Below are positions 1,018 to 43,478 of a DNA stretch of 50,517 nt, piece after piece (position 1 is the first letter of the stretch; every line of letters starts with the position of its first letter). Position numbers and translations under genes: made by a program. The notes under the pieces were generated by a model, which saw nothing but the letters and a program-made list of their open reading frames with translations, was not told where the DNA came from and made no database searches. The stretch spans positions 1 through 50,517 of the forward strand of contig JACQQF010000073.1 of assembly GCA_016207095.1 (NCBI GenBank). Reading direction: 5' to 3'. The stretch is from Candidatus Methylomirabilota bacterium. GTDB lineage: Bacteria; Methylomirabilota; Methylomirabilia; Methylomirabilales; Methylomirabilaceae.

Positions 1018-1551
1018 CTATTTCTGTTTGTACTGTTGGAGGAGTGCGTCGATGTATTTGGTGAACTCGTCTTCCGTCATCTCCTCGTCAGCCCGTCCAA
1101 AGAGAGTCCCGTCCCGGTTGATCAGGAGCGTTGTCGGGACCCGCTGGAGCGCATAGCGCTGGGCGATCTCCCCAGCGGCGTCGCGGCCGACAGGGTACGG
1201 GGCCTTGTACTGTGCAACAAACTTTCTCGCGTCGGCCTCGGTGTCCGACGCGACGTTGATCCCGAGCATCACCAGCCCTTTGCCCTTGTACCGCTGGTAG
1301 AGCTTCGCGAGAACGGGAGCCTCCCGTTGACAGTGGGGTCACTGCGAGTGGAAAAAACTGAGCAGGACCGGCTTGCCCCGGTACGCTCGAACGGAGGCCG
1401 TCTTCCCATTCAAGAGCCGGAGCGTGAAGTCCGGGACCGGGCCAGCCTCGGCTACCTGGAAGACCAGCGCCCCGATGAGCAGAGCAGCAGCCCAGCCGAG
1501 TCCGTTTCGAGGCCCCCGGACCACCGGGGGGCGTTTCAATGGGTGTCTCAT
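1018..1551 (-). CDS. Thioredoxin-fold periplasmic redoxin, selenoprotein (U-P-H-C)
   Basis: The reading frame runs through one TGA (1339-1341, codon 71) to give 177 residues. The two halves join seamlessly into a TlpA/ResA-like redoxin: FFHSQ-U71-PHC74-QREAP, followed by a cis-Pro loop RVPTTLLINRDG. The TGA falls exactly on the nucleophilic Cys of the CxxC site. ATG at 1551 is preceded by GGAGGAATCACAC. A perfect 7-bp hairpin (1312-1328) lies downstream of the TGA on the minus strand, as expected for a bacterial SECIS. A hydrophobic N-terminus (about residues 18-36) exports or anchors it. Likely function: periplasmic thiol/selenol reductase fed by the adjacent CcdA. Confidence 0.85.
1312..1328 (-). 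promoter_or_regulatory. SECIS-like hairpin of the 1.3-kb redoxin
   Basis: A seven-base-pair perfect stem (AACGGGA/TCCCGTT) with a three-base GGC loop begins 10 bases after the TGA at 1339-1341. Bacterial SECIS elements lie within the coding region just after the UGA. The usual apical GU is not present here; the loop is GGC. Confidence 0.55.
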
Positions 1552-1571
1552 GTGTGATTCCTCCAAAGACA

Positions 1572-1947
1572 CTGTGAGTAGCGCCTGAAGACCTCAGTCT
1601 AGCCCATACTTATTCCAGTGACGACCAAACCCGGTGTAGTCCTCGCCATTCATCTCCTGCTCCATGCGCACCTCCCACACGGCAAGACGACCTGCCGATT
1701 CGCTCGAGGAGCGAGAACTCGGCAATTCGTCGGTAGAGGTCGAGGTTTTCGAGGACTCCATGATTGGTACTGGAGACCGCTAAGGCCACGGCACGACAAC
1801 GACGCCTCCCAATGCCCCGAGCATCGTGAGCCCCCCATTGTCGTCGTACCTCTGCTCCGCTCACAAGACGTCATAACCCCACCTCCTACCAGGACAGGGA
1901 CGCCTTCATCACCACCGAGGAACCCAAGGACATCGGTGCGCTCGGAC
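1572..1947. other. 376-base stretch without a convincing gene
   Basis: Several short open frames overlap but none resembles a known family. The most plausible is a 55-codon minus-strand frame at 1594-1761 ending ...HWNKYGLD, without a clear ribosome binding site. I see no repeats or RNA gene here. Confidence 0.4.
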
Positions 1948-4386
1948 TCATCGGGCGGTGGAGGGAGGGACTTCGATTCCACGAACGGTTACCGGTAGCT
2001 TAGCGGGCAGTAGGCAGGTCTCATAGCTGCATGCCTGTGCTGTCACCGTCCCCCGAATCTCCTGGAGGCGCTGCAGGGTCCCCAGAGGAAAGACAGCCAC
2101 CAGGCGCGTCGTGCCCTCATACACGCTTAGCGCCTGGGGTGCGAATGTTGGCGTGATTCGTACCGCCTCGGGATAAATCGTCTGAGTAGGAGAGAGCCCC
2201 TCGAAGGTGACAGTGGTCGGGATGAGATAATTCAGCGAAGCCGGATTCGCATTGATGTGCCATCCCTCGCCAATATGGATCGTGGTGACGATCTCGTCGT
2301 GATCATTTTTGACTGAGGCTGACGCCGTTACCTGGACGTGGTCCGCTGTGTCGGGAAGACCGACGCGCTCTGCCGATGCGCCCCTCTCCGCGAGATGCGC
2401 TGTGCTTCCGAGGATCGATGCGAACTGACTCTCTGGGCCCAATTGATGAAAACTCACCGCGGCGACTGCAGCCCCCCAGGTGCTAGGATGCTGTTCCATT
2501 TGGTGGCTGATATGACTGACCGCCAAGGCGGCAGCGGAGACATACTTGGCCTTCTTGGTCGCTTCGCCCACCCGCAGCAAAAGTTCGATGGCAGCCGAGG
2601 TGCCTGATGGATAGACGCCATCGCCGTCATCCTCGGGCACGATCAGCAGATCCCGTTCGTTCAGAACCGTGGACAGTTTGCCGCCTTTTCGCGAGAACTG
2701 GCGCAACATGTCGTCTGCTAAAGTTCCTGCGCGGGTCAGCCATACCGTGTCCTTCGTCAGATCATAGAGCGACATGAAGCCCACCCCTAACAGCGCGTAA
2801 TCCTCAAGATAGGCGTCGGTCTGTGCGTGCCCGCGGAAGATCTCATGCTTGAGCCGCCGAGTTTTGGGGTTATACGCGACGGCCCAGATCCGCTCCGCCG
2901 TCCGCTTCGCCGAGGCAATGTCCCTCTCGTTTCCGAAGATCTGCCCGCTTTGCACCATTGCGTCGATCGCCAGGCCATTCATCCCAACAATGATCTTTTC
3001 GTCTCTCAGCGGCTGTGGTCGCCGGGTCCTCGCGACCAGCAGCTTGGCGCGTAACGGCGCCATCGCGTTCAGCCGCTCCACGACAGAGGAGCTCTGCGCG
3101 TTTTCCCCCACAGGGGAGGGGCGTACCCGGAGCACCCCTGGGCGCTCGTCAGAGGACGACCCGCCGACATCGGGTTGGGGCATGTGGGCTAACTCATATA
3201 CTTCGAAGAACCGCTTCGCAGGCTCGACGCCGAGGACGGACACGATCTGCCTACGAGTCCACACATAGCTTGCGCCTTCCTCGCCGTTCACCTCCGCATC
3301 CTGGGCCGTATAAAATCCCCCGTCGGAAGCGAGCATCTCGCCTGTGAGGTAGCGACTCACGCCATTGGCCACAGCTTTATACAGAGACCTGCGCGAGACC
3401 TGGTAGGTCTGCGCATAGATCTTTAGCAACTGCGCATTGTTGTAGAGCATTTTCTCGAAATGGGGGACCGACCAAGTAGGGTCCGTACTGTACCGATGAA
3501 AACCGCCTGCAAGGTGATCGTAGATGCCCCCATAGGCCATGGCGTCCAGGGTATTCTGAAGCATCTCCAGGCTCTCCGCGGACCGGGTAAGGCGGTGATC
3601 GGCCAACAGCAGCCCTAAGATCGGTTCGTTCGGGAATTTTGTTCCATTGCCTCCTGGAAACCCGCCCTTGATGGAATCGAACCTTCGGGATAGTGCTTGA
3701 CGCGCCCGAACGAGCCATTCGCCTGGCTTTACGGCGACCGTCTGACCGCTGCGCTGTTCCTGTTGAACCCGCTGCATGGCCAGGAACACGCGATCCGCCT
3801 GATCGGACACCCGCTTCTGATCGGTCGTCCAAATCCTATGGACCGCCTTGAGAATGGTGGGGAATCCGGGACGGCCGCCGCTGTCAGTCGGCCCAAAGTA
3901 GCTCCCCCCAAAGAATGGCTTGAGGTCCGGGGTCAGGAATAGGTTGTTGGGCCACCCTCCGTGCCCCGTCATGAGCTGGGTTGCCAGCATATAGATCTGG
4001 TCAAGGTCGGGGCGCTGCTCGCGGTCCACTTTGATGTTGATAAACCATGGATTCATCAGGGCAGCGATTTCGGGGCTGGAATACAGGAGCCTCTCGGCAA
4101 CGTGACACCAGTAACAGGTGGTGTAGCCGATCGAGAGAAAAATCGGTTTGTTCTCCTTCTTCGCCCTGGCGAGAGCTTCGGGACCCCAGGGGTACCAATC
4201 GACAGGATTGTGCGCGTGGAGCAGGAGATAGGGGTTTGCCGAATGAATCAACCGATTGGTATAACGCTCGTGCCCGGATCGATCCGGCGCCGCTTGGGTG
4301 CTTTGTGCCTGCGCAGGGAGGCCGGATCCGACCAGGGAGAGCAGGATGAGCAGAACGAGGACAGAGCGAGACGGTGAAGGAGCCAT
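1948..4386 (-). CDS. YyaL-type thioredoxin-domain protein fused to a DsbD-alpha-like domain
   Basis: An 812-residue exported protein. After a signal peptide (about residues 1-28) comes a DUF255/YyaL thioredoxin-like domain with NPVDWYPWG and a CxxC-type site TTCYWCH. A long glycan-epimerase-like alpha/alpha region follows ([25 protein letters not shown]). The last 120 or so residues match the N-terminal (alpha) domain of Dsb[11 protein letters not shown] and [10 protein letters not shown] with its Cys pair. I chose ATG 4386 (MAPSPS) because GGGGAG lies nine bases upstream; an in-frame ATG at 4407 is possible. The fusion puts a DsbD-like electron-accepting domain on a YyaL body, which fits the neighbouring CcdA and selenoredoxins. 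A broken partial copy lies at 5928-6817. Confidence 0.85.
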
Positions 4387-4425
4387 TGTGTATTCTCCCC
4401 TATTCATGGTTCGACGTCCCCAACT

Positions 4426-5340: not shown

Positions 5341-5931
5341 TCACTGCCCGTGGGCCGAGCCTCCCTTGAGGAGAGCCTGAAGGAGGGCGCGTCCCTCCGC
5401 TTGCGCCCACGGGCGAGGGCCAATCACCTTGGCCAGCACGGTTCCGTCCCGGCCGATTACGATGATGGTTGGTGTGGCTCTTACCCAGTAGGCCGCAATG
5501 GCGCGCCCCTCCGAGTCGAGTAAGACGGGCGCGACATATTTCCGCTGCTTCACCACCTTTGCCACGAGGTCCCGATCCTCAAGCATATCTATCAAGAGCA
5601 GGGTGAGCCCTTGACCTTTGAACTCCCGGTACAGCGCGTTCATAGAGGGCAACTCCCTCTTGCAGTATGGTCACGACGTCGCCCAGAAATAGAGCAGGAC
5701 GACCCGCCCTCGGAAGTCTTTGAGACGGACCGACCGCCCCGCGAGATCGGGCAACGTAAAAGATGGCGCGTCAATTCGTCCTGTAAACGGCATCACCCCT
5801 GCATCGCGCCAGAGCTCGATGGCAACAGGGCTGGCAGGTTGCGCGGCGCCGAGCGGCAGGAATCCTTCAACCGCAATCGCGCCGATGGCCGCAATGATCA
5901 CAAACCAACGCGTCACAAACCGTCTCCTCAT
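5341..5931 (-). CDS. TlpA-like periplasmic redoxin, selenoprotein (U-P-Y-C)
   Basis: The frame runs through a single TGA (5671-5673, codon 87) to give 196 residues. YFWATS-U87-PYC90-KRELPS is a classical TlpA/ResA active site with the first Cys replaced by Sec. The protein continues with LTLLLIDMLED and a cis-Pro segment WVRATPTIIVIGRDG. A signal or anchor helix covers about residues 8-28. A hairpin with an apical GU loop lies at 5644-5660, just after the TGA, a textbook bacterial SECIS layout. Its ATG overlaps the stop of the upstream broken YyaL copy (ATGA). Likely role: periplasmic reduction of metal-binding thiols or selenols. Confidence 0.87.
5644..5660 (-). promoter_or_regulatory. SECIS-like hairpin of the 5.7-kb redoxin
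   Basis: On the minus strand AGAGGG pairs with CCCTCT around the loop AGTTG, which carries the GU typical of SelB-binding loops. It begins 10 bases after the TGA at 5671-5673. Confidence 0.65.
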
Positions 5932-6817
5932 TGCTGCGGCGAGCCGCCACCCCTCTGACCAGTTGCGAACAGTTCTCGTCGCCGCTTACTATCCGCGGCC
6001 TCTCTGTCAATCTGGCCGTTTAAAGGTTCTGATAAGACGCGGGGGCACGCTCTCGGCTCGTTCGTGGGGAGGAAGCACACGGTTCCGAGGCAGACATGGG
6101 CTTGTGGCAGGCCCACCGCCTGGGCCGCTGCCTCCACAATGCGGAGAGAGAGCTCAGCCCTCTGAAGGGCCTTGCCCTGAGACTCGGCCAGCGCTTGCTG
6201 GACCTTCTCGGCCGTGTTCTGAACGGCCTCCCTCCGCTGGCGGTAGGCCAGCGCAATCCCGAGTAGCAGGGTCTTGAAGCCGATGCGGCCGTACTGGTCA
6301 TCGGGGAATAAGGTGCCCCCGCCGTAGAACGCCTGACCGCCCGCATTCAGGAGGACCGTCAAAGGCCAACCTCCAGCCCTCGTTAGCGTGTGCACCGCCT
6401 TCTGGTACCGGGAATCGATGTCGGGCCGCTTATCACGATCCACCCTGATCGCGGTGAAGGGGGTGTTGATCAGGCGCGCCACCTCGGGGTTGCTTAGGTC
6501 TCTTCGTCCATGACATGGCACCAGTGGCACCAGATGGCGCCAATGTCGAGGAGGACCGGTCGGTCGAGCTTCTTGGCCAAGCGGAACGGCTCCTCCCCTC
6601 AGGGGTACCAGGCGACAGGCTGAGTTGCCGCCTCCAGGATGTAGGGACTGGACGCTTTCGCCAGCTTGTTCGTCGGCGGTCCTCCTGCCTCGCTCGGGTG
6701 GGCAGAGTGGAAGACAAGCGCGACCAGGATCGCGGAGACCAGCCATCGCCTGCGCAGAATCAAGCCCGTTGGCCAATGCACCCTATTGGGCCACATCTCT
6801 TCTCTGGGGTGGGTCAT
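5928..6817 (-). pseudogene. Broken YyaL/DUF255 thioredoxin-domain gene
   Basis: The frame from ATG 6817 encodes a signal peptide and the start of a DUF255 domain (KLAKASSPYILEAATQPVAWYP). A TGA follows at 6599-6601 at the position of the conserved Trp of WYPWG. The next segment retains WCHWCHVMDEE, then a one-base deletion near 6497-6502 changes frame. The remainder (LSNPEVARLI, VDRDKRPDID, TRAGGWPLTVLL) continues to 5928. It is also much shorter than the 812-residue fusion at 1948-4386. The TGA replaces Trp, not Cys, so I read it as a nonsense mutation. The ATG overlaps the stop of the Sec MerP gene upstream. Confidence 0.75.
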
Positions 6818-12722: not shown

Positions 12723-13103
12723 GTGAGCGCACTGAGAAAGCTGGTACCCCGGCAAGAATTCGCACTTCTGGAACTGTCGGCGAAGTTCTTCCGGGGGTTA
12801 GGGGACCCGACTCGACTGAAGATCCTGGAGATTCTCCTCGAGGGAGAAAAGAGTGTCTCAGAGCTGGTTCGTCGCCTCGGTATCCAACAAGGCCGAGTGT
12901 CTAATCACCTCGCCTGCCTCAAGTGGTGTGGGTATGTGACGACCGGGAGCAAGGGACGCTACACGCTCTACCGTATCGCAGACCGCCGGGTGAAGCGACT
13001 CCTCCAGCTCTCGCGGGAGATGGTCGCGAAGAACACCGAGCACCTCTGGGCCTGCACGCGCATCGCTGAAACCCAGAGGCCTCGGGCAAGGATGGGGAGG
13101 TAA
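12723..13103 (+). CDS. ArsR/SmtB-family metal-sensing repressor, CmtR-like
   Basis: 126 residues with a winged-helix domain (FRGLGDPTRLKILEILLEGE, QGRVSNHLACLKWCGYV). Cys65 and Cys69 in the recognition helix (ACLKWC) together with Cys111 (LWACTRI) match the Cys arrangement of the Cd/Pb sensor CmtR, so a soft metal such as Hg, Cd or Pb is the likely inducer. The GTG start has AAAGGAGGC upstream. It heads the mer operon behind its own promoter and operator, indicating autoregulated repression. Metal specificity is inferred from neighbours. Confidence 0.85.
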   Translation: MSALRKLVPRQEFALLELSAKFFRGLGDPTRLKILEILLEGEKSVSELVRRLGIQQGRVSNHLACLKWCGYVTTGSKGRYTLYRIADRRVKRLLQLSREMVAKNTEHLWACTRIAETQRPRARMGR

Positions 13104-13105: not shown

Positions 13106-13726
13106 ATGTGGGGCCGGTTGACTGCAAAAGAACAGCGCGCCCGACGTGCCCTTCTCGAGCTAATCGTGACGAGCGGTCGTGATCCCGGCCTCAAGGCGCT
13201 TGCCTCGCGCCTTGAGGTTTCCGAATCCGAGGCGGCCAAGCTTCTTTCCGCCCTCGAGCGGAAGGGGTTTCTGGTTCGAGACCAGCGTTCGAACAGGATC
13301 AAAGCCGCCTATCCGCTCTCGACCCGTCCGACCCAGCATCAGGTCATGCTGAAGGATACGGGCCAGCGGCGCTACGCACTGTGCGCCATCGACGCCCTTG
13401 GTGTAGCGCCGCTCTTTGGCGGAGCCGTTATCGCGAATGCTAAGTGCCCGCACTGCGGACGATCAATTCGTGTTCACGTGGAGGACAACCAGATCATGGC
13501 CGTCAAGCCTGCGGGAGTCGTGGTCTGGTACACCCTCTCGGAACTGCTTACGAAACAGCAGCCCAACCTGAACTTGGCCGAGGCCCACTGACCCTCAACC
13601 AACTTCTTCTGTACGGAAGAAGCCGCATGGAAATGGGCCAAATTGCACCAAGCTCCCAGCGGCACGGTGATGACCCTGATCCAGGCGATGGTAAGAGCTT
13701 GCGAGGTCTTCGGCAGTAGTGAGTGA
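13106..13726 (+). CDS. merB: MerB-like organomercurial lyase, selenoprotein
   Basis: The frame passes TGA 13589-13591 (codon 162) and ends at TGA 13724, giving 206 residues, close to the usual 212 of MerB. An N-terminal winged-helix-like domain (about 1-80) is followed by the catalytic part. C93-AID96 matches the Cys96/Asp99 pair of MerB, and AEAH-U162-PSTNFFCTEEAAW matches the region of catalytic Cys159 (RCPFVNQVHFF in the Tn enzymes). The Sec therefore replaces one of the two catalytic thiols that cleave C-Hg bonds. A SECIS-like hairpin with GU loop lies at 13603-13622. An extra CPHC (114-117) could bind metal. It starts two bases after the regulator gene. Confidence 0.85.
13603..13622 (+). 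promoter_or_regulatory. SECIS-like hairpin in merB
   Basis: CTTCTTC pairs with GAAGAAG around TGTACG. The apical GU is 20 bases after the TGA (13589-13591), within the range for bacterial SECIS elements. Confidence 0.7.
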
Positions 13727-13745: not shown

Positions 13746-13973
13746 ATGAAACTTTCGGGGCTGGCAGGGCTCGGGATCATTGGGACCATCTTAACCTGCG
13801 TGGCCTGCTTCACTCCGCTTGCGGTCGGTCTGCTCGGGGTGATCGGCTTGGCGGGATGGGCCGGGTACCTAGACTACATTCTTTTCCCGCTCTTGATCGT
13901 GTTTGCCGGGCTGCTGGTGATCGGGCTCGTCCGCCGCACGTCAAATGCTGGGAAGCTGAAAGGAGAAAGCTAA
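13746..13973 (+). CDS. merF: MerF-like mercuric ion transporter
   Basis: 75 residues with two membrane helices. The first contains TCVACFTPLAVGLLGVIGL, closely resembling the MerF vicinal-Cys region (CCFTP), but the pair here is Cys18-x-x-Cys21. The second helix begins after GYLDYILFPLL, a strong MerF match. By family knowledge it moves Hg(II) across the inner membrane to cytoplasmic reductase or thiols. ATG 13746 has AAAGGAG upstream. The stop overlaps the next start (TAATG), so it is translationally coupled to the glutaredoxin-like gene. Confidence 0.85.
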   Translation: MKLSGLAGLGIIGTILTCVACFTPLAVGLLGVIGLAGWAGYLDYILFPLLIVFAGLLVIGLVRRTSNAGKLKGES

Positions 13974-14209
13974 TGGCAAAACAAATCGTCGTCTACAGCC
14001 AGCCGGGGTGAGGGGCGTGTCATCAGGAGAAAGAGTTCCTTTCTCAAAAGGGGATCACCTTCGTAGACAAGAACATCCGTGAGGATCCGGCAGCACTAGA
14101 AGAGCTCCAGCAGATGGGGTATCGGGCGACGCCCGTGACCGTGATCGACGGCGAGGCCGTCGTCGGCTTCGACCGCGGCAAGCTGATGCGGCTACTCGAC
14201 CTGAGCTGA
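13973..14209 (+). CDS. Glutaredoxin-like selenoprotein (U-x-x-C)
   Basis: Reading through TGA 14009-14011 (codon 13) gives a 78-residue NrdH/glutaredoxin-like protein: IVVYSQPG-U13-GAC16, then IREDPAALEELQQMGYRATP and VTVIDGEAVVGFDRGKL, with the cis-Pro TPVTV site. It is complete for this family and has no signal peptide, so it is cytoplasmic. A SECIS-like hairpin with GU loop lies at 14027-14045. The likely role is to take Hg(II) from MerF/MerT or to reduce MerB and other selenols, possibly with the FAD disulfide reductase at the end of the operon. Confidence 0.87.
14027..14045 (+). promoter_or_regulatory. SECIS-like hairpin in the glutaredoxin-like gene
   Basis: GAGAAAG pairs perfectly with CTTTCTC around AGTTC, with apical GU 23 bases after the TGA at 14009-14011. 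Confidence 0.75.
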
Positions 14210-14240: not shown

Positions 14241-14534
14241 ATGGTCAGGGTCCAGTGCAGTGGGTGCGGGCAGGAGATCGAGCTACCGCCGGGGACGCGC
14301 TCGGGCGACATTATCGCCTGTCCTAACTGAGCGGGTCTCTCGCTCCGTGTGAGCGAGCAAGAGGGGACGTGGTCAGCCGTAGTCCTCAAGACAGCAAGCT
14401 GCGCCGTCGTCGACGAACTGGTCGTCCTCCCCGATGACGTGCAGCCGGGGGACATCATCGAGTGCCACGGGACCCAGCAACGGGTGACCTATGAGTACGG
14501 CGCCTATGCGTTGGAAAAGGCAGGAGGCGTTTAG
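14241..14534 (+). CDS. Zinc-ribbon selenoprotein (C-x2-C...C-x2-U)
   Basis: The frame passes TGA 14328-14330 (codon 30) to give 97 residues. VQC6SGC9GQEIELPPG and DIIAC27PN-U30 form a LysW-like zinc ribbon in which the fourth ligand is Sec. The C-terminal part (TWSAVVLKTASCAVVDELVV, VQPGDIIECHG) is unrecognised but contains further Cys and His. ATG 14241 has GGAGG five bases upstream; an in-frame GTG at 14217 is possible. A near-ideal SECIS hairpin is at 14339-14357. A Sec ligand in a structural ribbon suggests a soft-metal-binding rather than a purely structural site. Confidence 0.75.
14339..14357 (+). promoter_or_regulatory. SECIS-like hairpin in the zinc-ribbon gene
   Basis: CTCGCTC pairs perfectly with GAGCGAG around CGTGT. 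The loop holds GU 16 bases after the TGA at 14328-14330. Confidence 0.75.
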
Positions 14535-14537: not shown

Positions 14538-14969
14538 ATGAGAATAGCAAATCTGAAATCTAGCTTTTTGGCCATCGTGACAGCGAGCGTCGCGTCTCTG
14601 TGCTGCCTCCTCCCGCTTACCGTGATCCTGCTGGGACTCGGCAGCGGGGCGTTCATGATGACCACCATGAGGTACCGGGCTATCTTCATCCCGGCGGGAG
14701 TCATCGGGGTGGGGCTCGGCTGGCTCCTCCACTTTAGGGAGCGCAGGGCGTGCAACGCCCTCGGATGCCGGATGGCGGGCGGGACGCTGAACCTATCCCT
14801 GCTCCTGGTCGCGACCCTCGTGGTGGCTGCTGCGGTAGCTCTTGACCAATTCCCCAGTGTCACCGCAGATCTGCTGACCCGCGCAACAGCCCGCGCCTCG
14901 ACTGCAGCGCCTATGGCGGGTTCCTCGAGCGACCACTCGACCATGAGACACGAAGGGAGCCAAAAATAA
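14538..14969 (+). CDS. merT: MerT mercuric ion transporter
   Basis: 143 residues, inner-membrane protein. The first helix carries the vicinal pair SLC22C23LLP, and the cytoplasmic loop carries RRAC72NALGC77R, matching the two Cys pairs of MerT. A third helix follows (LNLSLLLVATLVVAAAVAL). By family knowledge MerT receives Hg(II) from MerP at the first pair and passes it inward. It keeps ordinary Cys while its partner MerP, which begins at the very next base, uses Sec. The C-terminal tail is His/Ser-rich (SSSDHSTMRHEG), unlike classical MerT. Confidence 0.88.
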   Translation: MRIANLKSSFLAIVTASVASLCCLLPLTVILLGLGSGAFMMTTMRYRAIFIPAGVIGVGLGWLLHFRERRACNALGCRMAGGTLNLSLLLVATLVVAAAVALDQFPSVTADLLTRATARASTAAPMAGSSSDHSTMRHEGSQK

Positions 14970-15275
14970 ATGGAAAGACCGGGCTGTGATCGACGCACCT
15001 TTCTCGGCTTGTCACTGGGGGCACCGCTTGTCTTGGCGCTGAGGCGCGCCTTGGCCTCAGAGACCGCCATTGCAATCCTGCATATTGACGGCATGACGTG
15101 AGGGGCCTGACCCATCGTAGTGATGAAGGCCCTGGAGGGGCTGAAGGGGGTCAGGAGTGCGCACGTGAGTTTCAGGGAGAAGCTCGCCCGCGTGACCTAT
15201 GAGAAAGGAGTCGTGACCGTCGAGCAGATGATCGAGGCCGTAACCAGGGTCGGCTTCCGAGCGACCTTGCCATGA
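14970..15275 (+). CDS. merP: MerP periplasmic mercury-binding protein with two selenocysteines (U-x-x-U)
   Basis: 101 residues with two in-frame TGAs (15099-15101 and 15108-15110). After a Tat/Sec-like signal (RRTFLGLSLGAPLVLAL) comes one HMA domain: AILHIDGMT-U44-GA-U47-P, then MKALEGLKGVRSAHVSF and MIEAVTRVGFRATLP. Both Cys of the GMTCxxC metal site are Sec, giving a bis-selenolate site. The start abuts the merT stop. The SECIS-like structure at 15103-15132 contains the second UGA within its outer stem. The expected role is capture of Hg(II) in the periplasm and hand-over to MerT. Confidence 0.82.
15103..15132 (+). promoter_or_regulatory. SECIS-like structure in merP
   Basis: An outer stem GGGCCT/AGGCCC and an inner stem CATC/GATG enclose the loop GTAGT with a GU. 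It sits 1-30 bases after the first TGA and includes the second TGA, so one element would have to serve both. Confidence 0.5.
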
Positions 15276-15405
15276 ATCATTCGTTCTTCAGGTCCCCGTA
15301 GTAAGTGGGCGGCCATCATCTATTGGTGGGTCGCTCACGCGATCCGCGGAGCGTGGACGACGCAGGCTGCTTAAGTCGGGCGACCATCTTGGAGGTGTGG
15401 GATCA

Positions 15406-16758
15406 ATGAACAAGCAATTCGATCTCATCGTTATCGGGACAGGCGCGGCCGGAGCAACTGCCGCTTACAAGTGTCGATCAGCAGGTTGGGAGGTGGCGAT
15501 CGCCGATGCGCGACCCTTCGGGGGAACATGCGCCTTGCGAGGATGCGACCCGAAGAAGGTGCTCGTCGGTGCCGCTGAGCTCGTGGATTGGCAGCATCGA
15601 ATGGCCAGGAGAGCCGTGGTCACTAACGGCCTCAAGATCGACTGGCCGGCATTGATGCGCTTCAAGAGGACCTTCACCGAGCCCGTCCCAAAAAACCGGG
15701 AGGAGGGCTATGCCAAGGCCGGGATCGCCACGCTTCACGATCGTGCCCGGTTCATCGGGCCGACCACGCTCGAGGTGGGTGATCAGGTGTTGACCGGCCG
15801 GCATGTGCTCATCGCGAACGGGGCACGTCCCGCCACGCTCGCCATCCGTGGGGAAGAGCATCTAACCACCAGCGACCAGTTCCTGGAGCTCGATCGGCTT
15901 CCGCCGCGGATCCTCTTCGTCGGAGGCGGCTATATCTCGTTCGAGTTCGCCCACATCGCTGCGCAAGCCGGGGCTCAAGCCCGTGTTCTCCATCGAGGGT
16001 CCCGTCCGCTAGCGGGGTTTGACTCTGATTTGGTGGATCAATTGGTTCGAGCAACACGGGAGATCGGCGTGGATGTGCGCCTCAATACCACCGTTGAGGG
16101 GATTGAAAGAGGACGAGGACAGCTAATCGTTCACGCTTTGGCGGAGGGCGTGCGACAGACATTTGAAGCTGAGATGGTGGTCCACGGGGCAGGCCGTGTG
16201 CCGGAGATCGACGACCTAGGCTTAGAGGCGGCTGGCGTTCGGTGGGGGCAAAAGGGGGTGGTCGTGAACGAGTACCTCCAGAGCGTCTCAAATCCTGCGG
16301 TCTACGCCGCAGGGGACAGTGCCGCCAGCGGAGGGCTCCCGCTGACTCCAGTCGCGAGCCTCGAAGGCCATGTCGTGGCGAGCAACCTGCTGGAAGGGAA
16401 TCATCGGACGCCAGACTATACCGGTGTGCCCACCGTGGTATTTACTGTACCTTCTCTGGCCTCCATCGGGCTGCAGGAGGAAACCGCAAGGCAACGAGGC
16501 TTAAAGTTCAGGGCCAAGCACGGGGATACTGGAGAATGGTACTCCTCCCGCCGCGTCGGCGTCCGACACTCTGGCTTCAAAGTGCTGATTGAGGAGGGGA
16601 CCGAGCGTATCCTCGGAGCGCATCTGCTCGGTCCGCACGCCGAGGAGGTAATCAATCTCTTCGCGCTGGCCATCCGAGCAGGGCTGCGTGCGGCCGATCT
16701 CAAGACGATGCCCTGGGCCTATCCCACCAGCTCGTCCGACGTCAGCTACATGGTTTAA
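15406..16758 (+). CDS. FAD-dependent pyridine-nucleotide disulfide oxidoreductase of the MerA/glutathione reductase family
   Basis: 450 residues. N-terminal FAD-binding DLIVIGTGAAGATAAYKC, redox-active pair FGGTCALRGCDPKK (C-x4-C), NADPH-binding ILFVGGGYISFEFAHIAAQA, second FAD motif VYAAGDSAASGG, and a dimerisation domain ending AYPTSSSDVSYMV. It lacks both the N-terminal HMA domain and the C-terminal Cys pair that deliver Hg(II) in MerA, so Hg(II) reduction is uncertain. It could instead reduce the selenoglutaredoxin or the Sec-MerB. ATG 15406 is chosen because GGAGGT ends nine bases upstream; a GTG at 15397 is in frame. Last gene of the mer operon. Confidence 0.85.
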   Translation: MNKQFDLIVIGTGAAGATAAYKCRSAGWEVAIADARPFGGTCALRGCDPKKVLVGAAELVDWQHRMARRAVVTNGLKIDWPALMRFKRTFTEPVPKNREEGYAKAGIATLHDRARFIGPTTLEVGDQVLTGRHVLIANGARPATLAIRGEEHLTTSDQFLELDRLPPRILFVGGGYISFEFAHIAAQAGAQARVLHRGSRPLAGFDSDLVDQLVRATREIGVDVRLNTTVEGIERGRGQLIVHALAEGVRQTFEAEMVVHGAGRVPEIDDLGLEAAGVRWGQKGVVVNEYLQSVSNPAVYAAGDSAASGGLPLTPVASLEGHVVASNLLEGNHRTPDYTGVPTVVFTVPSLASIGLQEETARQRGLKFRAKHGDTGEWYSSRRVGVRHSGFKVLIEEGTERILGAHLLGPHAEEVINLFALAIRAGLRAADLKTMPWAYPTSSSDVSYMV

Positions 16759-19147: not shown

Positions 19148-19987
19148 ATGCTCATTACGCTGAACGATGTGGCGTTTGTCCTGGCCGGACTTGTCGTGAT
19201 CGCGCTGACGCTCAGACGGCGGTGGGTGATCCCGCCGCCTGAGCCAGCCCCACCGACATCGAGGGGAGAGGTTGTGCTGACCGGGCTTGCCCTCGTGACG
19301 GCCGCCATCGGCCCCAACATCCTGGTGGTCGCGTTAACGCCCGGCATGCCAGGCATGCCGGTCCTGACCCGCTGGGCACTCCTGCCCTCCCTCGTCCTGC
19401 TGCTGGCAGTGTGGGGTTTGGCGTTCCTCTGGGGCTACGCGCGCCTGACCAATCGGATCTGGACGGGCATCTGGATCGGGGGCGCGAGCACCGCGGCCCT
19501 CGATCTGTTCCGCCTCATCAGCTTCCACCTGGGGCTCTTGCCGGGCAACATGCCAAGGATGTTTGGGGTGCTGATCCTGGATACCATGGCGGCGGGGCCC
19601 ACCCCCTACTCCGACTTCGTGGGCTCGCTCTACCACTACTGGGTCAGCGCCTGCTTCGGGTTGACCTATACCCTCATCTGCGGTCGGACTCGGTGGTGGG
19701 GCGGGCTGATCTGGGGATTGATCATCGAGGTGGGGATGATGGCCACTCCCCCGATGGTCGTGGCCATGGACACCGGCTACTTCGGGCTGAAATTGGGGAA
19801 GGGGCTTCTGAACGGCGTGTTTATCGGGAGCCTCATCCCCCACGTCGCCTACGGCATCGTCCTCGGCCTCCTCATCGAGCGGTATGTGAGGCAGAAGGGC
19901 TCGATCGTTAGCGTGATCCGGGAGGCTCTCACTACCAAGAAAAGGAGCGAATGTGGGCCAAGACCCGTGCCGGTTAGCGGGGGATGA
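19148..19987 (+). CDS. Polytopic membrane protein of unknown function
   Basis: 279 residues with about seven membrane helices (VAFVLAGLVVIALTL, VVLTGLALVTAAIGPNILVV, LLPSLVLLLAVWGLAFLWGY and others). The central loop contains HLGLLPGNMPRMFGVL. I do not recognise the family. ATG 19148 follows a GAAGGGG site; the frame is open from 19130. It overlaps the MerE-like gene by 35 bases. Confidence 0.65.
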   Translation: MLITLNDVAFVLAGLVVIALTLRRRWVIPPPEPAPPTSRGEVVLTGLALVTAAIGPNILVVALTPGMPGMPVLTRWALLPSLVLLLAVWGLAFLWGYARLTNRIWTGIWIGGASTAALDLFRLISFHLGLLPGNMPRMFGVLILDTMAAGPTPYSDFVGSLYHYWVSACFGLTYTLICGRTRWWGGLIWGLIIEVGMMATPPMVVAMDTGYFGLKLGKGLLNGVFIGSLIPHVAYGIVLGLLIERYVRQKGSIVSVIREALTTKKRSECGPRPVPVSGG

Positions 19988-20258
19988 AACATGCGGAGGC
20001 AGGGGGCGCCAGGAAGACCCGCTTCCAAGAGGAAAGGGTGGGGTAGGGGGCTATTTCCTTCTCATCACGGCAGCCCTGACTTGTCCCTGCCACTTGCCTG
20101 TCCTTCTGGCGTTGACCGCAGGGAGTGTCATCGGCTCCGTGCTGTCACGTCATCTCTGGCTCACCGCCCTGCTGCTCACCATGTACTTTGTTGGGGCCCT
20201 CTATCTCGGTCTCAAGCAGATCAATAAGGAGAAAGTGGGTCATCCGGATGGACTCTAG
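19953..20258 (+). CDS. merE: MerE-like mercury transporter
   Basis: The last 65 or so residues match MerE: GYFLLITAALTCPCHLPVLL, then LTAGSVIGSVLSRHLWLTAL and a second helix ending LYLGLKQINKEKVG. TCPCHLP is the characteristic Cys pair. MerE carries Hg(II) and methylmercury across the inner membrane in the transposon mer systems. As drawn (GTG 19953, 101 residues) the first 32 residues are low-complexity and overlap the gene before. A better N-terminus may start at ATG 19991 in another frame, which would imply a one-base frameshift near 20030-20050. Confidence 0.7.
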   Translation: MGQDPCRLAGDETCGGRGRQEDPLPRGKGGVGGYFLLITAALTCPCHLPVLLALTAGSVIGSVLSRHLWLTALLLTMYFVGALYLGLKQINKEKVGHPDGL

Positions 20259-22654: not shown

Positions 22655-22665
22655 GGAGACGAGTC

Positions 22666-23796: not shown

Positions 23797-23819
23797 ACAA
23801 TGAACTAGGAGGGCAGACC

Positions 23820-24362: not shown

Positions 24363-24376
24363 TGGAGGAACGCACG

Positions 24377-27173: not shown

Positions 27174-27689
27174 CTACATGTCAGTTGCAGCATAGGACTT
27201 GATTGCGGCAGCTTCTTGTTCGCCCTCCGGGATTACGGCTGTAATGACGGCTTTCGGGGCTCTTCCGGCGAGCGCCTTTCGTAGAGCGTCAAGCTGCGAG
27301 TTTTCCACTAACCGGATAAGCTGACCGGTATCCAGCAACTTCAATGTAGGTCGTCCCTCGCGAGCCATCAGTTCGGCCCTTGCTGTAAATTCAAGCCAGG
27401 TGGGGGTGAAGCCGTAGCTGCGGATCGCGTGGCGAATCGCTTCGACGTTCAGGCGTGTGCCTGGCTTGAGCGAAAACTCGGCCTCGGCCTTACGTAAGCT
27501 CACGGCAACATCGGTCACGCCGTCCAGGCGTGAAAGGGCGCGCTGCACCCCATAGGCTCAGGTGGGTCAGACCATGCCGCTCACGCCCAAGCGCACCCGC
27601 ATCCCCTCAGCCAAGGCCGCCTGCGCCAGCAGGAGCAGGAGACCCACCAACATGAGCTGGTAGAACCACTGACTAAATCTTGCCTTCAT
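27174..27689 (-). CDS. Two-domain MerP-like periplasmic selenoprotein with two Sec (U-x-x-U)
   Basis: 171 residues through two TGAs (27567-27569, codon 41; 27558-27560, codon 44). Signal peptide about 1-27 (LMLVGLLLLLAQAALA), then an HMA domain: RLGVSGMV-U41-PT-U44-AYGVQRALSRL, ending YGFTPTWLEF. A second domain of about 70 residues follows (LKLLDTGQLIRL, AVIPEGEQEAAAIKSYAA) and is shared with the genes at 31022 and 42969. GGAGGGACCG precedes ATG 27689. Both metal-site Cys are Sec. Probable role: periplasmic soft-metal carrier; the second domain is of unknown function, perhaps a docking or beta-barrel module. Confidence 0.8.
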
Positions 27690-28814: not shown

Positions 28815-29156
28815 TCAATAAGGATAGAGCAACATCCCCCAGACGTAGAAGTACCCGACCATCGCCGCCGAGAAGACGGTGGACGCCCAGAACACGACCT
28901 TCCGGGGAGTCAGTCCCGGCACCTGTGGGCGCGTCCAGTAGTAATAATGGGCCGCGACCAAGGCCACCACCCCCGGGAGGTGGATCCATCCCATGTACGG
29001 CCCGACCACCCTTCGGTATGTCGCCACACTGGCGAACGCGCTGGCGCCGCCTGCAAAGAGGATCAGCACCAGCGGGGCGATTCAGCACCAACTCCCGGCG
29101 ATCCCGACCGCCGCGAGCACACTCCACGCTGAGACCCGCTCTCCTTGCTGCTCCAT
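28815..29156 (-). CDS. merT: MerT-like inner-membrane mercury transporter, selenoprotein (Cys-Sec pair)
   Basis: 113 residues through TGA 29082-29084 (codon 25). VGIAGSWC24-U25-IAPLVLIL matches the vicinal Cys-Cys of the first MerT helix (SACCLGPLVL), with the second Cys replaced by Sec. Two more helices follow (GVVALVAAHYYYW, WASTVFSAAMVGYFYVWG). The length fits MerT (116). The cytoplasmic-loop Cys pair of classical MerT is absent. The open frame continues upstream into a broken HMA domain (29157-29517), so the ancestor was probably a MerP-MerT fusion; ATG 29156 is the likely present start. Confidence 0.75.
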
Positions 29157-29517
29157 GTCTCTCTTCCTTGCCGCCGCGTGGACGGCCGCCTCTGGGTGGC
29201 GGACGATCGGCCGATAGCCTCCGGCCCCGCCCCCCACTACAAGCTCCGGGACCCGCATCTTCCCGGACCCGCCCCTGACTTGTGCCCTCCCAGTTTGGTA
29301 GTTTAGGCCTATTTACTTGACTCAACCAACCCCAATATCATGTGGCAAGTCGAGTCGCCGCACCACAACATCTGGCGACTAGTTGAGTCAAGTAAATACC
29401 CCCATGGTAGTTAATCCTGACCCGCTCCACATCCGACAGCTCTTCCTGGATTTGCTTGATCCGATCCTCTCAACCCTTGTAGGTCATTCCTTCGATGGCC
29501 AAGCTGATTTCATCCAT
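29157..29517 (-). pseudogene. HMA domain of a MerP-MerT fusion, interrupted by a small insertion
   Basis: The start reads MDEISLAIEGMTYKG-U16-EDRIKQ: the usual GMTCxxC with Cys13 changed to Tyr and a TGA at 29470-29472. After 35 codons the frame enters a 102-base inverted-repeat element (29304-29405). Beyond it the domain resumes as LNYQTGRAQVRGG and continues without a stop into the MerT-like gene. The intact equivalent is at 42556-42888, with YQAGKARVEGEAG at the insertion point. Loss of the first ligand and the insertion indicate a non-functional HMA domain. Confidence 0.75.
29304..29405. mobile_element. MITE-like 102-base inverted-repeat insertion
   Basis: Two perfect 17-base inverted repeats, TATTTACTTGACTCAAC at 29310-29326 and its complement at 29382-29398, enclose a further AGTCGCC/GGCGACT pair. 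The element is bounded by GGTAGTT at 29297-29303 and 29406-29412, which looks like a 7-base target duplication. It is too short for a transposase. The uninterrupted homologue at 42.78 kb has a single GGTAGCT. Confidence 0.7.
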
Positions 29518-29608
29518 GAGCCCCTCTCTCCCGCGTTTACCACTCCCATGTCCATGTGCACCTGAGACTTCTCGCAACCGTCTCCCCCAGAGGGTGTCTT
29601 CTCCTTTA

Positions 29609-29949: not shown

Positions 29950-31002
29950 CTACATCCCATTCATCCCGCCGCCCGGAGCACCGAGCATGGTGAAAGGAAA
30001 CATCATCATGAGCCTATCTACGAGTTGTCGGAACCAAGGGACATGCGCCACGTGCACGCCGAGCACCGCAAAGCCGCCGGCGACCGCCAGCCCGCCCAGG
30101 GCCGCAGAGAGGTAGATCGACAGACTGACGGCACAGCCGCGACGACCTCGGGAGTGGCCAACGAGGGTCCGAATTGTGAGGGGGTTAAGCAGGCTCAATA
30201 GCACGAAGCTGATGACGCCCGAGTACGTGAGGGTCCAGGTCTTCCAGATGCTGGAAACCATGATGAGGTTTCCTCCCGGGGCCAGAAACAAGACCACAGA
30301 GAGGAGGGGTGCCAGAAAGGAACTCGCCAGCGCGGCGCCCAACGTCTCGTCGCCCATCCATTTGGGGAAGAACCAGGCTCCCCGGGTGTCAATGGCCAGG
30401 ACCAGCGCGCCCAGGATGAGCCCGCCGATCAGCGAGGGCCCCATGCTGCGGAGATACCGCCCGATGTCCCGGACGATCTCCCCCCAGCCCCGGCCCGAAC
30501 AGACAAGCGATGTCCAGCTCCCTGGGGCCCCTGCCACGAGCCCGCCAGGCGGGTCAGAGGGGAAGCCAGGCTCCTGCCTCAAGGCGGGCGCCATCAGCCG
30601 CAAGAGGCCAATCATCACCAGCCCACCGAGGAGGACGCCCAGGCTGAACTCGAGCCCGATGAGGATTGTGAAGAGCACCAGGTTGAAGAGCACCAAGCTG
30701 TGGCTTGCGACGAGGAAGGCGAGGACGATGTGATCGGGGACGCTCGCGCGCCACAGGGTCGTGGCCATCTCGAGACTACTCCGCCGGCCCGCCCCGCTGG
30801 TCATCCCCCAGCCGACGGCGGCCCAGAAGGCCACACCCCCCTGGCGCCGCTTGAGGGTAATCGCTTGGAGGACCTGGCGATAGCGGGCGCTGAGGGCGGC
30901 GGCGGCGAGGAAGCCCGGGATCCAGGCCCAGTACATCATGATCACCATGTGCTGGAGATAGGCCCATCCCCAGCTGGCCGTTTCCTGAACCAGGCTAAGC
31001 AT
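29950..31002 (-). CDS. Polytopic permease of the DUF318/ArsP-like type (copy 1)
   Basis: 350 residues with eight to ten membrane helices arranged in two halves (AWIPGFLAAAALSARYRQVL, IGLEFSLGVLLGGLVMIGLL, LIGGLILGALVLAIDTRGAW). Internal Ser/Thr/Gly-rich motifs such as MTSGAGRRSSLEMATTLW and LAPGGNLIMVSSIW resemble the predicted-permease family that includes the arsenical exporter ArsP. It is paralogous to 43529-44566. GGAGGTCACACA precedes ATG 31002. It is 19 bases from a Sec MerP-like gene, suggesting the pair works together. Substrate unknown; a soft-metal or organometal compound is inferred. Confidence 0.75.
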   Translation of the reverse strand: MLSLVQETASWGWAYLQHMVIMMYWAWIPGFLAAAALSARYRQVLQAITLKRRQGGVAFWAAVGWGMTSGAGRRSSLEMATTLWRASVPDHIVLAFLVASHSLVLFNLVLFTILIGLEFSLGVLLGGLVMIGLLRLMAPALRQEPGFPSDPPGGLVAGAPGSWTSLVCSGRGWGEIVRDIGRYLRSMGPSLIGGLILGALVLAIDTRGAWFFPKWMGDETLGAALASSFLAPLLSVVLFLAPGGNLIMVSSIWKTWTLTYSGVISFVLLSLLNPLTIRTLVGHSRGRRGCAVSLSIYLSAALGGLAVAGGFAVLGVHVAHVPWFRQLVDRLMMMFPFTMLGAPGGGMNGM

Positions 31003-31021: not shown

Positions 31022-31576
31022 CTACTTCCCCATGCCCTTCATCTCGCCCATGCCTTGCGTCCCTTGGCTGCCGGCCTTCTCCGCTTCGGCCCCAAGGATG
31101 AGCCGCGGCGGCATCTCGGTGAACAGGACCTTGCCTACGAGGGGGATCTCCTTGCCCGCCTCGCGCTTCAGCCTGGTCACTTCCGGACTGTCGGCCACAA
31201 GGAACGTCTGGTTCGAGCCACTCACGGTGAAGATTACGCCTCCATCCGGCGGTGCGCTCAGTGTCCCCTTGGCCCAGATCGTGATCGACCCGGCCGTGAA
31301 CCCCGCCTTGTCGACCGCGTCTGCGAGGGCGTGAAAGTCGATTGGCTTTCCAGGCTTAAAGGTGAGTGCGGATCTCTGCGTGCTCAGATCGGTTTTGACG
31401 TCGTGGACGACATCCAGCCGTCCCAGGGATTTGCTCACCCCGTAGGTTCAGAGGCTGCACTGCATCCCGCCCAGGATTGTGATGACTGCCTTCTCCACTT
31501 CGGCCGCTGCCGGGGTGGGGGATGCGACGAACGTAGTGAGGCTTAAGGCGAAAACTATGACCATGAGTCTTCGCAT
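31022..31576 (-). CDS. Two-domain MerP-like periplasmic selenoprotein (C-x-x-U)
   Basis: 184 residues through TGA 31448-31450 (codon 43). Signal peptide about 1-25 (MVIVFALSLTTFVASPTPAA), then an HMA domain TILGGMQC40-SL-U43-TYGVSKSLGRL. Only the second metal-site Cys is Sec. The C-terminal domain (WAKGTLSAPPDGGVIFTVSG, TEMPPRLILGAEAEKAG) is homologous to those at 27174 and 42969 and ends with a short Gly/Met-rich tail. AGGAG precedes ATG 31576. Co-transcribed with the permease downstream and the beta-barrel upstream. Confidence 0.8.
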
Positions 31577-39873: not shown

Positions 39874-39882
39874 GCCCCCCTC

Positions 39883-42452: not shown

Positions 42453-42555
42453 GGTTGTCTTCCGCGCTCAAGGCCGTGCCCGCGTCGGCCACCATCCGCT
42501 GATCGACGCGCGCGACCGGCTCCGGCGGTCGATCAGCCAGAGTCCCATAACGAAG

Positions 42556-42888
42556 TTACAACCTCCCGACGATCCCGATCCCGACCGCCGCGAGCGCGCT
42601 CCACGCCGAGATCCGCTCTCCTTGCTGCTCCATGTCGCTCTTCCTTGCCGCCGCGTGGACGGCCGCCTCTGGGTCGCGGACGATCGGCCGATAGCCTCCG
42701 GCTCTCCGAACCGCCGCCAGAATCTCCGATACCTGGAGCTTCCCAGCCTCGCCCTCGACCCGCGCCTTCCCAGCTTGGTAGCTAACAGCCACCCGATGTA
42801 CACCATGAAGCCCTTCCAGGGCTTGCTTGATCCGAACCTCTCAGCCCTTACAGGTCATCCCTTGGATGGTTAAAGTGATCTCCTCCAT
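42556..42888 (-). CDS. HMA selenoprotein (C-x-x-U) fused to a truncated MerT start
   Basis: 110 residues through TGA 42841-42843 (codon 16): LTIQGMTC13-KG-U16-EVRIKQALEGL, ending the HMA domain at ILAAVRRAGGYRP. The chain then continues into MEQQGERISAWSALAAVGIG, which is the first 20 residues of the MerT-like protein at 28815, and stops at 42556 just where that protein has its Cys-Sec pair. A MerP-MerT fusion has thus lost the transporter part. GAGGAGGCAC precedes ATG 42888. There is no signal peptide, so the HMA domain is cytoplasmic unless fused to MerT. The HMA part could still work. Confidence 0.7.
42808..42824 (-). promoter_or_regulatory. SECIS-like hairpin of the 42.6-kb HMA gene
   Basis: AAGCCCT pairs with AGGGCTT around a GGA loop on the minus strand, starting 16 bases after the TGA at 42841-42843. 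No apical GU. Confidence 0.5.
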
Positions 42889-42968
42889 GTGCCTCCTCGC
42901 TTCCCGTTTATCGCTCCACGGGCAATTGAGCCCGCTTGCAGGTCTGACCCTTTACAGTGCCCTCACCT

Positions 42969-43478
42969 TTAGCGGACCTCGAACCGCTCGATCTGGGCCA
43001 TCTCCTTCCCCTTGGGGATGAGCCCGATGATGGAGACGAGCTTGCCGTCCTGCCCGGTGGCCTTCCGAAGCGCCGCGCCCTTCTCATCGGCCACAAGCGG
43101 GATGACCTGTCCTGTCCCCTTGACCTTGAAGGCTGGGTTTCCGTCCTTGGTGGTGAGCTGTCCCACCGCCTCGAACCGAATCCAAGTCGGCGTAAACCCT
43201 GCCTCGACGACCGCCTTCCTCAGCTTCTCCACCTCGAGCGGTCGGCCTTCCTTCAGCGCGATGTCTGCCTGCGCCTGCTCCAAACTAACCTTCACCTTTT
43301 CCACGCCCTCCAGGCGGGTTAGGGCCTTTTGGACCCCATATGCTCAGATGGGTCAGATCATCCCATCGATGCCGATCTGGACCTGCTTGATCTCGGCGAA
43401 GGCCAAAAGAGGAAATGCCAAGGCCAGGATCAAGGCGAGCCCAATCAGGATGGACACCGTCTGCGTTCTCTTTCTCAT
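42969..43478 (-). CDS. Two-domain MerP-like periplasmic selenoprotein with two Sec (U-x-x-U)
   Basis: 169 residues through TGAs 43353-43355 (codon 42) and 43344-43346 (codon 45). Signal peptide about 1-28 (SILIGLALILALAFPLLAFA), then an HMA domain VQIGIDGMI-U42-PI-U45-AYGVQKALTRL and GFTPTWIRF. The second domain (FKVKGTGQVIPLVADEKG, SIIGLIPKGKEMAQIERFEV) matches that of 27174-27689 closely. AGGAGG precedes ATG 43478. Located 50 bases downstream of a permease paralogous to that at 29950, repeating the permease/Sec-MerP pairing. Confidence 0.82.

Follow-up and report, generated by a model that had tools for sequence, protein, structure and literature searches.

Putative selenoproteins, including an organomercurial lyase homologue, encoded in and around a mer-type operon of Methylomirabilota

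Genes with in-frame TGA codons

The stretch of DNA analysed here (the window) is a contig of 50,517 nucleotides (JACQQF010000073.1; C48 in our numbering) from the 2.90-Mb genome of a Candidatus Methylomirabilota bacterium (GCA_016207095.1; 103 contigs, 94.88% complete). When TGA is read as a residue, 12 genes of the window prove to carry such codons in frame, 15 in total, each at a redox or metal-binding position, in line with the at least eleven such genes of an earlier, sequence-only annotation (the original prediction). Its centre of interest is a mer-type operon at 12.7–15.3 kb that encodes, in order, an ArsR-family regulator, MerB, MerF, a glutaredoxin, a LysW-like zinc ribbon, MerT and MerP, with one TGA each in MerB, the glutaredoxin and the zinc ribbon and two in MerP. 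The 12 genes are listed below; codons called Sec codons are predicted, U denotes selenocysteine (Sec) in motifs, and G, C and L numbers are our labels for genomes, contigs and loci.

1018–1551, − strand: TlpA/ResA-like redoxin; Sec codon 1339–1341, motif UPHC; AhpC-TSA domain (PF00578) matched across the TGA; hairpin resembling a bacterial selenocysteine insertion sequence (SECIS)
5341–5931, − strand: second TlpA-like redoxin; Sec codon 5671–5673, UPYC; TGA retained in a G023 relative of 91% identity
6814–7113, − strand: HMA (MerP-like) protein with a signal-like N-terminus; Sec codon 6991–6993, GMTUPDT; the G023 relative has U there and a second U
13106–13726, + strand: merB, organomercurial lyase homologue; in-frame TGA 13589–13591, residue 162
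13973–14209, + strand: glutaredoxin (grx); Sec codon 14009–14011, PGUGAC; PF00462, 52 bits
14241–14534, + strand: LysW-like zinc ribbon; Sec codon 14328–14330, CPNU; PF21344, 30.5 bits
14970–15275, + strand: merP; two Sec codons, 15099–15101 and 15108–15110, GMTUGAU; HMA domain PF00403
27174–27689, − strand: HMA protein (HMA27); two Sec codons, 27567–27569 and 27558–27560, UPTU; PF00403; both TGAs kept in G023 and G028
28815–29156, − strand: MerT-like protein; Sec codon 29082–29084, SWCU, second of the Cys pair
31022–31576, − strand: HMA protein (HMA31); Sec codon 31448–31450, CSLU; motif kept in the 65–67% identical relatives of G071, G093 and G094
42556–42888, − strand: HMA protein; Sec codon 42841–42843, CKGU; a MerT-like N-terminal remnant at its end
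42969–43478, − strand: HMA protein (HMA43); two Sec codons, 43353–43355 and 43344–43346, UPIU; two-Sec relatives, next to an ArsP_1 or P-type ATPase gene, in L053, L274 and L275

By eye, a ribosome-binding-like sequence lies ahead of the start in 11 of the 12, the 5.3-kb redoxin being the weak one. Pfam matches span the TGA, with Cys substituted, in MerB, both redoxins, the glutaredoxin, the zinc ribbon and six HMA proteins.

Evidence that TGA is read as selenocysteine

The window's own genome is a Sec-decoding one: tRNA-Sec (71.4 bits, gathering score 47; tRNA-SeC with anticodon TCA according to ARAGORN), SelA (597.4 bits, cut-off 267.9), SelB (367.1 bits, cut-off 242.25) and SelD (397.7 bits, cut-off 125, with one in-frame TGA of its own) all score above cut-off. 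The genes selA, selB, selC and selD, for which the original prediction had proposed a search, are thus all present in the genome. Across the phylum, SelB exceeds its cut-off in 84 of 95 genomes. Where a MerB match carries a TGA (35 genomes), a tally across two tables gives 32 with SelB above cut-off, and G046, G057 and G077 have lower-scoring SelB matches only. UGA in the listed genes would be decoded as Sec by SelB. TGA also ends 16 of the 37 reading frames that we took as ordinary genes in the window, which, together with the presence of tRNA-Sec, agrees with the earlier view that TGA is a normal stop here and that the code is not reassigned.

Independent assemblies have an in-frame TGA at the corresponding motif of MerB, MerP, the glutaredoxin, the LysW-like protein, MerT (in G028), HMA31, HMA27, HMA43 and the 5.3-kb redoxin, and the G023 relative of the 6.8-kb HMA protein also has TGA at the first motif position; no orthologue of the 1-kb redoxin or the 42.5-kb HMA protein was traced. 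Because of this recurrence, the TGAs of the window are very unlikely to reflect chance or sequencing error. Comparison with Cys homologues, a check proposed alongside the original prediction, gave a column occupied by TGA in 23 and by Cys in 10 of 33 aligned MerBs of the phylum, with no other in-frame stops, and a LysW-like column with 25 Sec and 13 Cys rows; the MerT homologue of G019 has a Cys-Cys pair. For the other Sec genes the corresponding Cys is that of the family motif, not of an aligned column.

Codons past the TGA are mostly under purifying selection. The ratio of nonsynonymous to synonymous substitution rates (dN/dS) downstream of the TGA is 0.25 for MerB against the genome's own paralogue and 0.31 against G027, 0.08 and 0.06 for the glutaredoxin, 0.12 for the LysW-like protein, 0.18 for MerP, 0.23 for HMA43 and 0.11, over 88 codons, for the 28.8-kb MerT. 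Against G027 the LysW-like gene gives no downstream value, as the final TGA there is the gene's stop.

Hairpins were assessed with a generic bacterial SECIS rule, which we coded ourselves, and with fixed stems for four genes of the operon. The generic rule accepted 12 of the 15 TGAs in the window; among random codons it accepted 156 of 370 (Fisher p 0.006) and among Cys codons 35 of 96 (p 0.002). For merB it accepted all 44 unique TGA sequences, compared with 21 of 46 Cys sequences. The fixed stems are as follows.

13603–13622, + strand: merB hairpin, CUUCUUCU-GUAC-GGAAGAAG; loop 19 nt past the TGA
14027–14045, + strand: grx hairpin; of 35 unique sequences, 33 form its seven pairs
14340–14356, + strand: LysW-like hairpin; loop 15 nt past the TGA
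15128–15142, + strand: merP hairpin; of 23 Sec sequences, 22 form its six pairs

The six inner pairs of the merB stem are present in 42 of the 44 unique TGA sequences and in none of the 46 Cys sequences, of which 11, by count, come from Methylomirabilota and the others from other phyla. The merB loop is GGUC in 36 and GUAC in 5 of the 44, and the Glu codon within the stem is GAA in 43 of them; Glu codons upstream, in TGA rows including duplicates, comprise 443 GAG and 119 GAA. One pair of the grx stem is A-U in 22 sequences and C-G in 13, and the six pairs of the LysW-like stem occur in 19 of 22 Sec and in 0 of 15 Cys sequences. Counts refer to unique DNA, without second matches per locus and without rows ending soon after the Sec codon; for grx, LysW-like and merP they are limited to sequences in which the motif was found. 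The stems were picked after the Sec sequences had been viewed, so their weight lies in how they differ between Sec sequences and Cys orthologues; sequences related to one another do not count as independent events.

Several of these results speak against decoding as Sec, or blunt the case for it. The gap between the TGAs and random codons (42%) under the generic rule is modest, and the rule misses the MerT and LysW-like genes of the window. For LysW-like sequences it ranks the states the wrong way round (11 of 13 Cys scored, against 12 of 25 Sec), because the shared loop starts 15 nt past the TGA, one under the limit. Since the generic scan is weak and misranks this family, the hairpin case rests on the fixed-stem counts. 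The merP stem is also found in one of the only two sequences with Cys at the second position, and MerB compared with G023 gives a dN/dS of 0.92, with only 9 differences.

Machinery, conserved TGA columns, hairpins and purifying selection together indicate that the TGAs of the window almost certainly encode Sec. In a draft of 103 contigs and a region with decayed genes (such as a relic at 29.4 kb), the TGAs might be suspected of stemming from faulty assembly, from gene decay or from reassignment of the stop codon, but this explanation is hardly credible, given that independent assemblies share the same TGA columns, that selection past the TGA is mostly purifying, that hairpins track the Sec state, that 16 of 37 ordinary frames end in TGA and that tRNA-Sec is present.

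MerB with a predicted Sec at the catalytic position

Counted along the alignment with solved MerB chains, residues 162, 93 and 96 of the window protein correspond to the catalytic residues Cys159, Cys96 and Asp99 of MerB (E. coli-type numbering). By this alignment, the predicted Sec162 is the equivalent of catalytic Cys159. The protein matches PF03243 at 92.9 bits (threshold 27), and its predicted structure (mean predicted local distance difference test score, pLDDT, 86.7) matches 11 solved chains at E ≤ 1e-3, all of them MerB. It resembles classical MerB (PDB 3f0o, 3f2g and 5c17) in fold, in PF03243 and in the equivalents of Cys96 and Asp99, but differs in that the equivalent of Cys159 is encoded by TGA and that it stays under the curated NCBIfam MerB cut-offs (NF009710, 70.9 against 193 bits; NF033555, 66.4 against 200).

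A MerB match is found in 52 of the 95 phylum genomes, and Cys96 and Asp99 are kept in all 33 aligned phylum MerBs. In a wider set of 133 rows, which includes duplicates under unnamed and named entries, column 159 is U in 68, C in 62 and a gap in 3. A tree of 94 of these rows (46 Sec, 48 Cys), from which nested duplicates and L202, L202_2, L219, L219_2, L221, L229, L232 and L233 had been removed, requires at least four changes of state, at least two of them forced by well-supported branches. The Sec-MerBs of L209, L211 and L212, from metagenome-assembled genomes (MAGs) labelled Acidobacteria and Myxococcales, are nested among Rokubacteria, which may reflect mislabelled or mixed MAGs, or transfer.

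A MerB-like selenoprotein with a CU motif, SaoL of the SAO system, is listed in the review PMC13188914. The window MerB likewise is a MerB-like lyase with a predicted Sec and matches the SaoL model (NF040728) at 87.4 bits, but this is under the SaoL cut-off of 140. Its motif, HUPSTNFF / LUTTLNFFRSEEH, differs from the CU of SaoL, and its neighbours are merF, grx, the LysW-like gene, merT and merP; no search was aimed at Sao partner genes.

Other MerB-like sequences also carry U. A second group in the phylum (L107, L109, L111 and L113–L120) has Glu at the Asp99 column and U at 159, and may differ from MerB in function. Two further proteins have U at both catalytic Cys columns: L110 (G040:C148, in the window's phylum; 930–1502, − strand; UGLDSL and LTUNGMNLF) and L233 (a MAG labelled Acidobacteria; 5998–6567, + strand; NUALDSL and GGUGVINFF). 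The four that were scanned, L107, L110, L117 and L233, pass the Pfam MerB score. The final position of NF040728 aligns with the second Sec of L110 (57–153 to 66–159 of 159), which suggests that this Sec occupies the same column as that of SaoL.

The operon and its conservation

The other genes of the operon, and a flavoprotein gene just downstream, carry no in-frame TGA.

12723–13103, + strand: ArsR-family regulator at the head of the operon; PF01022, 61.7 bits; several relatives likewise have an ArsR match ahead of merB
13746–13973, + strand: merF, Cys kept (CVAC); PF11431, 47.3 bits against 24.3
14538–14969, + strand: MerT-like membrane protein with Cys-Cys, not a selenoprotein; PF02411, 25.1 bits, under the gathering score of 32.9
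15397–16758, + strand: glutathione-reductase/MerA-like flavoprotein without the C-terminal Cys pair; MerA model TIGR02053, 284.2 bits (283.9 in the genome-wide search) against 454.45

A second copy of the ArsR-to-LysW-like segment lies elsewhere in the same genome (C9; L051, 5862–7655), with a MerB 79% identical to that of the window and a LysW-like gene that carries two TGAs. The seven-gene order of the window is repeated in G021; G027 has all seven on one contig, ArsR and MerB at one end and the others at the opposite end; and in G046, from another family, MerB, glutaredoxin, LysW-like, MerF, MerT and MerP genes are contiguous. The core operon, with either an ArsR or a MerR regulator, is found in other genera and in several families of Methylomirabilota, and named relatives of the MerB include Candidatus Methylomirabilis, NC10 and Rokubacteria assemblies. 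G023, placed in the same genus as the window, has a MerB match at 90%. A tblastn search of PLSDB for plasmid kin returned 448 records, all below 60% identity.

The glutaredoxin has U at its column in 36 of 38 rows; among 78 named MerB loci it is matched in 17, with U in all 17. A LysW-like match occurs at 16 of these loci, 10 of them with U. Many LysW-like relatives have a second Sec (CxGU), and the aligned columns exchange C and U. The best fold match of the LysW-like protein is LysW itself (3vpb; E 3.5e-3, 48 columns, TMt 0.74), and residues 4–38 match PF21344 above the gathering score. It thus resembles the amino-group carrier LysW/ArgW in part of its model, but has one or two of the zinc-ribbon Cys residues replaced by Sec and an extra C-terminal half.

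In MerP, U is found at the two positions in 29 and 30 of 32 rows. At the 78 named loci MerP has UxxU in 8 and a single U in L209; the MerP matches without U, at seven loci, are all Alphaproteobacteria by title. The HMA domain of the window MerP scores 49.1 bits against 24.8, and the protein stays under the curated MerP cut-offs (TIGR02052, 56.8 against 92.55 bits; NF041115, 91.3 against 95). With its UxxU-bearing HMA domain it is similar to MerP and to the UxxU metal-binding (seleno)protein NF041115, but it differs in that last score and in sharing an operon with Sec-MerB, Sec-glutaredoxin and a Sec zinc ribbon.

Two relatives underlie the assignment of the 28.8-kb protein to MerT: one in G028, 86% identical and sharing its TGA, and one in G019, 30% identical, in which AICCIGPLLF takes the place of SWCUIAPLVL in the window protein. 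No Pfam family, PF02411 included, matches the 28.8-kb protein at E ≤ 0.01, and against MerTP_fusion it reaches an E of just 0.0068. In its small size, its MerT-like membrane character and its Sec within the Cys pair it is akin to known MerT-type selenoproteins (the PF02411 entry with C/SxxU in PMC13188914; the MerT/CopZ fusion NF045683), but it stands alone, has the motif SWCU and lacks a Pfam match at that threshold.

A possible selenium-based route for mercury

Our preferred reading is that the 12 TGA genes, with the operon as their core, are read as Sec and that their products bind, split and pass on mercury compounds by means of selenolates together with thiolates; judged by sequence, this is probably so. 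MerP (UxxU) and the Sec HMA proteins would bind Hg(II) or organic mercury outside the cell and pass it to MerF and MerT or to ArsP_1 permeases (listed below), which would move it. In known MerB, RHg+ sits on Cys96 and Cys159 while Asp99 protonates the carbon, and selenolates bind Hg(II) better than thiolates. In the window protein, RHg+ may correspondingly be held between Cys93 and Sec162, with Asp96 protonating the C-Hg bond; the selenolate would provide tighter binding and weaken that bond. Ligand exchange with the Sec-glutaredoxin and the Sec zinc ribbon could then free MerB of Hg(II), whose disposal might fall to the flavoprotein or to P-type ATPases.

A number of observations weigh against this reading. 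The substrate and the metal are inferred from homology and family names. MerF, the second MerT (14538–14969) and the P-type ATPases keep Cys, and a MerA above cut-off is absent from the genome. In 14 of the 24 named loci with a TGA-bearing MerB (L233 aside), MerB is alone among the queried genes, within flanks of at most 6 kb and on contigs some of which are short. Finally, the Sec states of MerB and the LysW-like protein are uncoupled: at the 16 named loci with both, 9 combine Cys-MerB with a Sec ribbon, 6 show the reverse and 1 has Sec in both, as do the window, its C9 copy, G027 and G021. Because the two proteins switch between Cys and Sec independently, a matched selenium-to-selenium relay is not required.

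The same uncoupling, and the at least four changes of state in MerB (at least two forced by supported branches), would fit a different explanation, namely that these are real selenoproteins whose selenium is not there for mercury: Cys and Sec might exchange freely in small redox and metal-binding proteins, Sec being used for speed or for resistance to dithiol oxidation. Many TlpA-like redoxins across the genus have one in-frame TGA, suggesting a large selenoproteome, and the 2026 review PMC13188914 credits 63 selenoprotein genes to a Methylomirabilota MAG, while cautioning about co-assembly. The exchange is selective, however. No stop is found in HMA matches within frames of at least 770 aa (the size of P-type ATPases) among the matches listed, and MerF and one MerT keep Cys, whereas the glutaredoxin (36 of 38) and both positions of MerP (29 and 30 of 32) are nearly always Sec. 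Moreover, Cys159 of known MerB is a metal ligand and not part of a redox disulphide. We give this explanation a substantial chance, a little under even; it may coexist with the preferred reading, and the likelihoods of the two overlap because Sec could serve metal binding and redox chemistry alike.

The original prediction that carriers, transporter and lyase share a selenium-based route holds in part: carriers, one transporter and the lyase are among the Sec genes, while MerF and the second MerT retain Cys. Its wider suggestion of a whole mer pathway built with Sec is not supported as stated, as the HMA domains of two P-type ATPases in the window and, by reading, a MerE-like protein encoded at 19953–20258 also keep Cys, no MerA exceeds its cut-off, and MerB and the zinc ribbon switch state independently.

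As to MerA, no protein of the genome (94.88% complete) passes the TIGR02053 cut-off of 454.45, the best scoring 359 bits on C97. The flavoprotein at 15397–16758 matches glutathione reductase as well as MerA; having neither a TGA nor the C-terminal Cys pair, it was rejected as a Sec-bearing or canonical MerA.

Metal genes around the operon

Two HMA genes with Sec codons are paired with genes for permeases.

29950–31002, − strand: ArsP_1-family permease, paired with the 31-kb HMA gene; PF03773, 35.9 bits; pairing kept in L238–L240
43529–44566, − strand: ArsP_1-family permease, paired with the 43-kb HMA gene; PF03773, 51.2 bits

HMA31 (CSLU) is flanked by an outer-membrane-like gene (labelled by reading) and the ArsP_1 permease in the window, G071, G093 and G094. 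Two-Sec relatives of HMA43 (UPIU) adjoin ArsP_1 in G027 and G014 and a P-type ATPase in G026. Since both neighbourhoods recur, a Sec HMA protein beside a permease or ATPase has been found more than once. MerT (CU), an outer-membrane-like gene and HMA27 (UPTU) are grouped in G028 as in the window.

These neighbours bear on the choice of metal. The ArsP_1 permeases next to Sec HMA proteins and an arsenite oxidase large subunit above cut-off in the window (TIGR02693, 441.5 against 359.05 bits) bring arsenic into play; HMA domains match copper chaperones too, and the genome has no MerA above cut-off. The system might thus deal with soft metal(loid)s other than mainly mercury, the lyase and carriers acting on organoarsenicals, copper or silver. 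We consider this unlikely, in view of the shared operon of merB, merF and merP-type genes and of a lyase that keeps Cys96, Asp99 and the MerB fold.

The arsenite oxidase gene is the last in a row on the + strand (21566–27046) that starts with two di-haem cytochrome peroxidase-like genes and continues with a Rieske-type gene (by reading).

Relation to known selenoproteins

The selenoproteins listed in PMC13188914 include SaoL (MerB-like, CU), a PF02411 mercuric transport protein, a UxxU metal-binding protein, glutaredoxin, HgcA and HgcB; a LysW-like family does not appear in two parts of its selenoprotein section. The literature searched yielded no account of a mer operon with Sec genes in Methylomirabilota, nor of a selenoprotein of LysW-like type or a MerB with two Sec residues; an earlier description of the operon may exist. 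What is known, then, are single Sec families and SaoL; what seems new here is the widespread mer operon with several Sec genes and the predicted Sec at the catalytic position of MerB.

The antagonism between selenium and mercury is usually viewed as toxicity, with mercury poisoning selenoenzymes. Methylomirabilota appear to have turned the affinity of the two elements into a tool for detoxification; their lyase gene is widespread and alternates between Cys and Sec at a catalytic position. A stronger version of the preferred reading is a selenium-wired detoxification of mercury, in which a selenoenzyme lyase is joined by a selenol-to-selenol relay of MerP (UxxU), Sec-glutaredoxin and Sec zinc ribbon, Sec acts as a ligand for heavy metal and not as a redox catalyst, and classical MerA is dispensed with; we advance it tentatively, as somewhat less probable than its negation. 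The natural Cys and Sec orthologues of MerB offer a way of comparing the two residues for the rate of C-Hg cleavage or of Hg transfer. Because gene callers that read TGA as a stop shorten such genes, surveys of merB may miss or truncate Sec-merB. A zinc-ribbon family with Sec and a clear set of conserved SECIS-like hairpins are further additions from the locus.

Decayed genes and other candidates

The original prediction had also counted two decayed Sec genes; one is recognised here.

29370–29520 (ends approximate), − strand: decayed HMA relic with TGA in its motif; no Pfam match

Another relic, an HMA piece near 47.4 kb, has the ordinary motif CSFC and a TGA that looks like a plain stop; it was for these reasons rejected as a Sec relic and excluded from the Sec genes. 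UAG was considered as a second Sec codon and likewise rejected, since the inner TAGs at L150, L238–L240, L263–L266 and L271 are ordinary gene-end stops at all nine places inspected. The HMA genes at 42556–42888 and 29370–29520 (− strand) adjoin MerT-like sequence and look like duplicates of an HMA/MerT unit: in one the HMA part has decayed, and the other retains the MerT start alone. Beside the Sec HMA gene at 6.8 kb lies a decayed, frame-broken gene (5928–6817, − strand) that reads like a thioredoxin-domain protein of DUF255 type; its full-length relative, also by reading, is found at 1948–4407.

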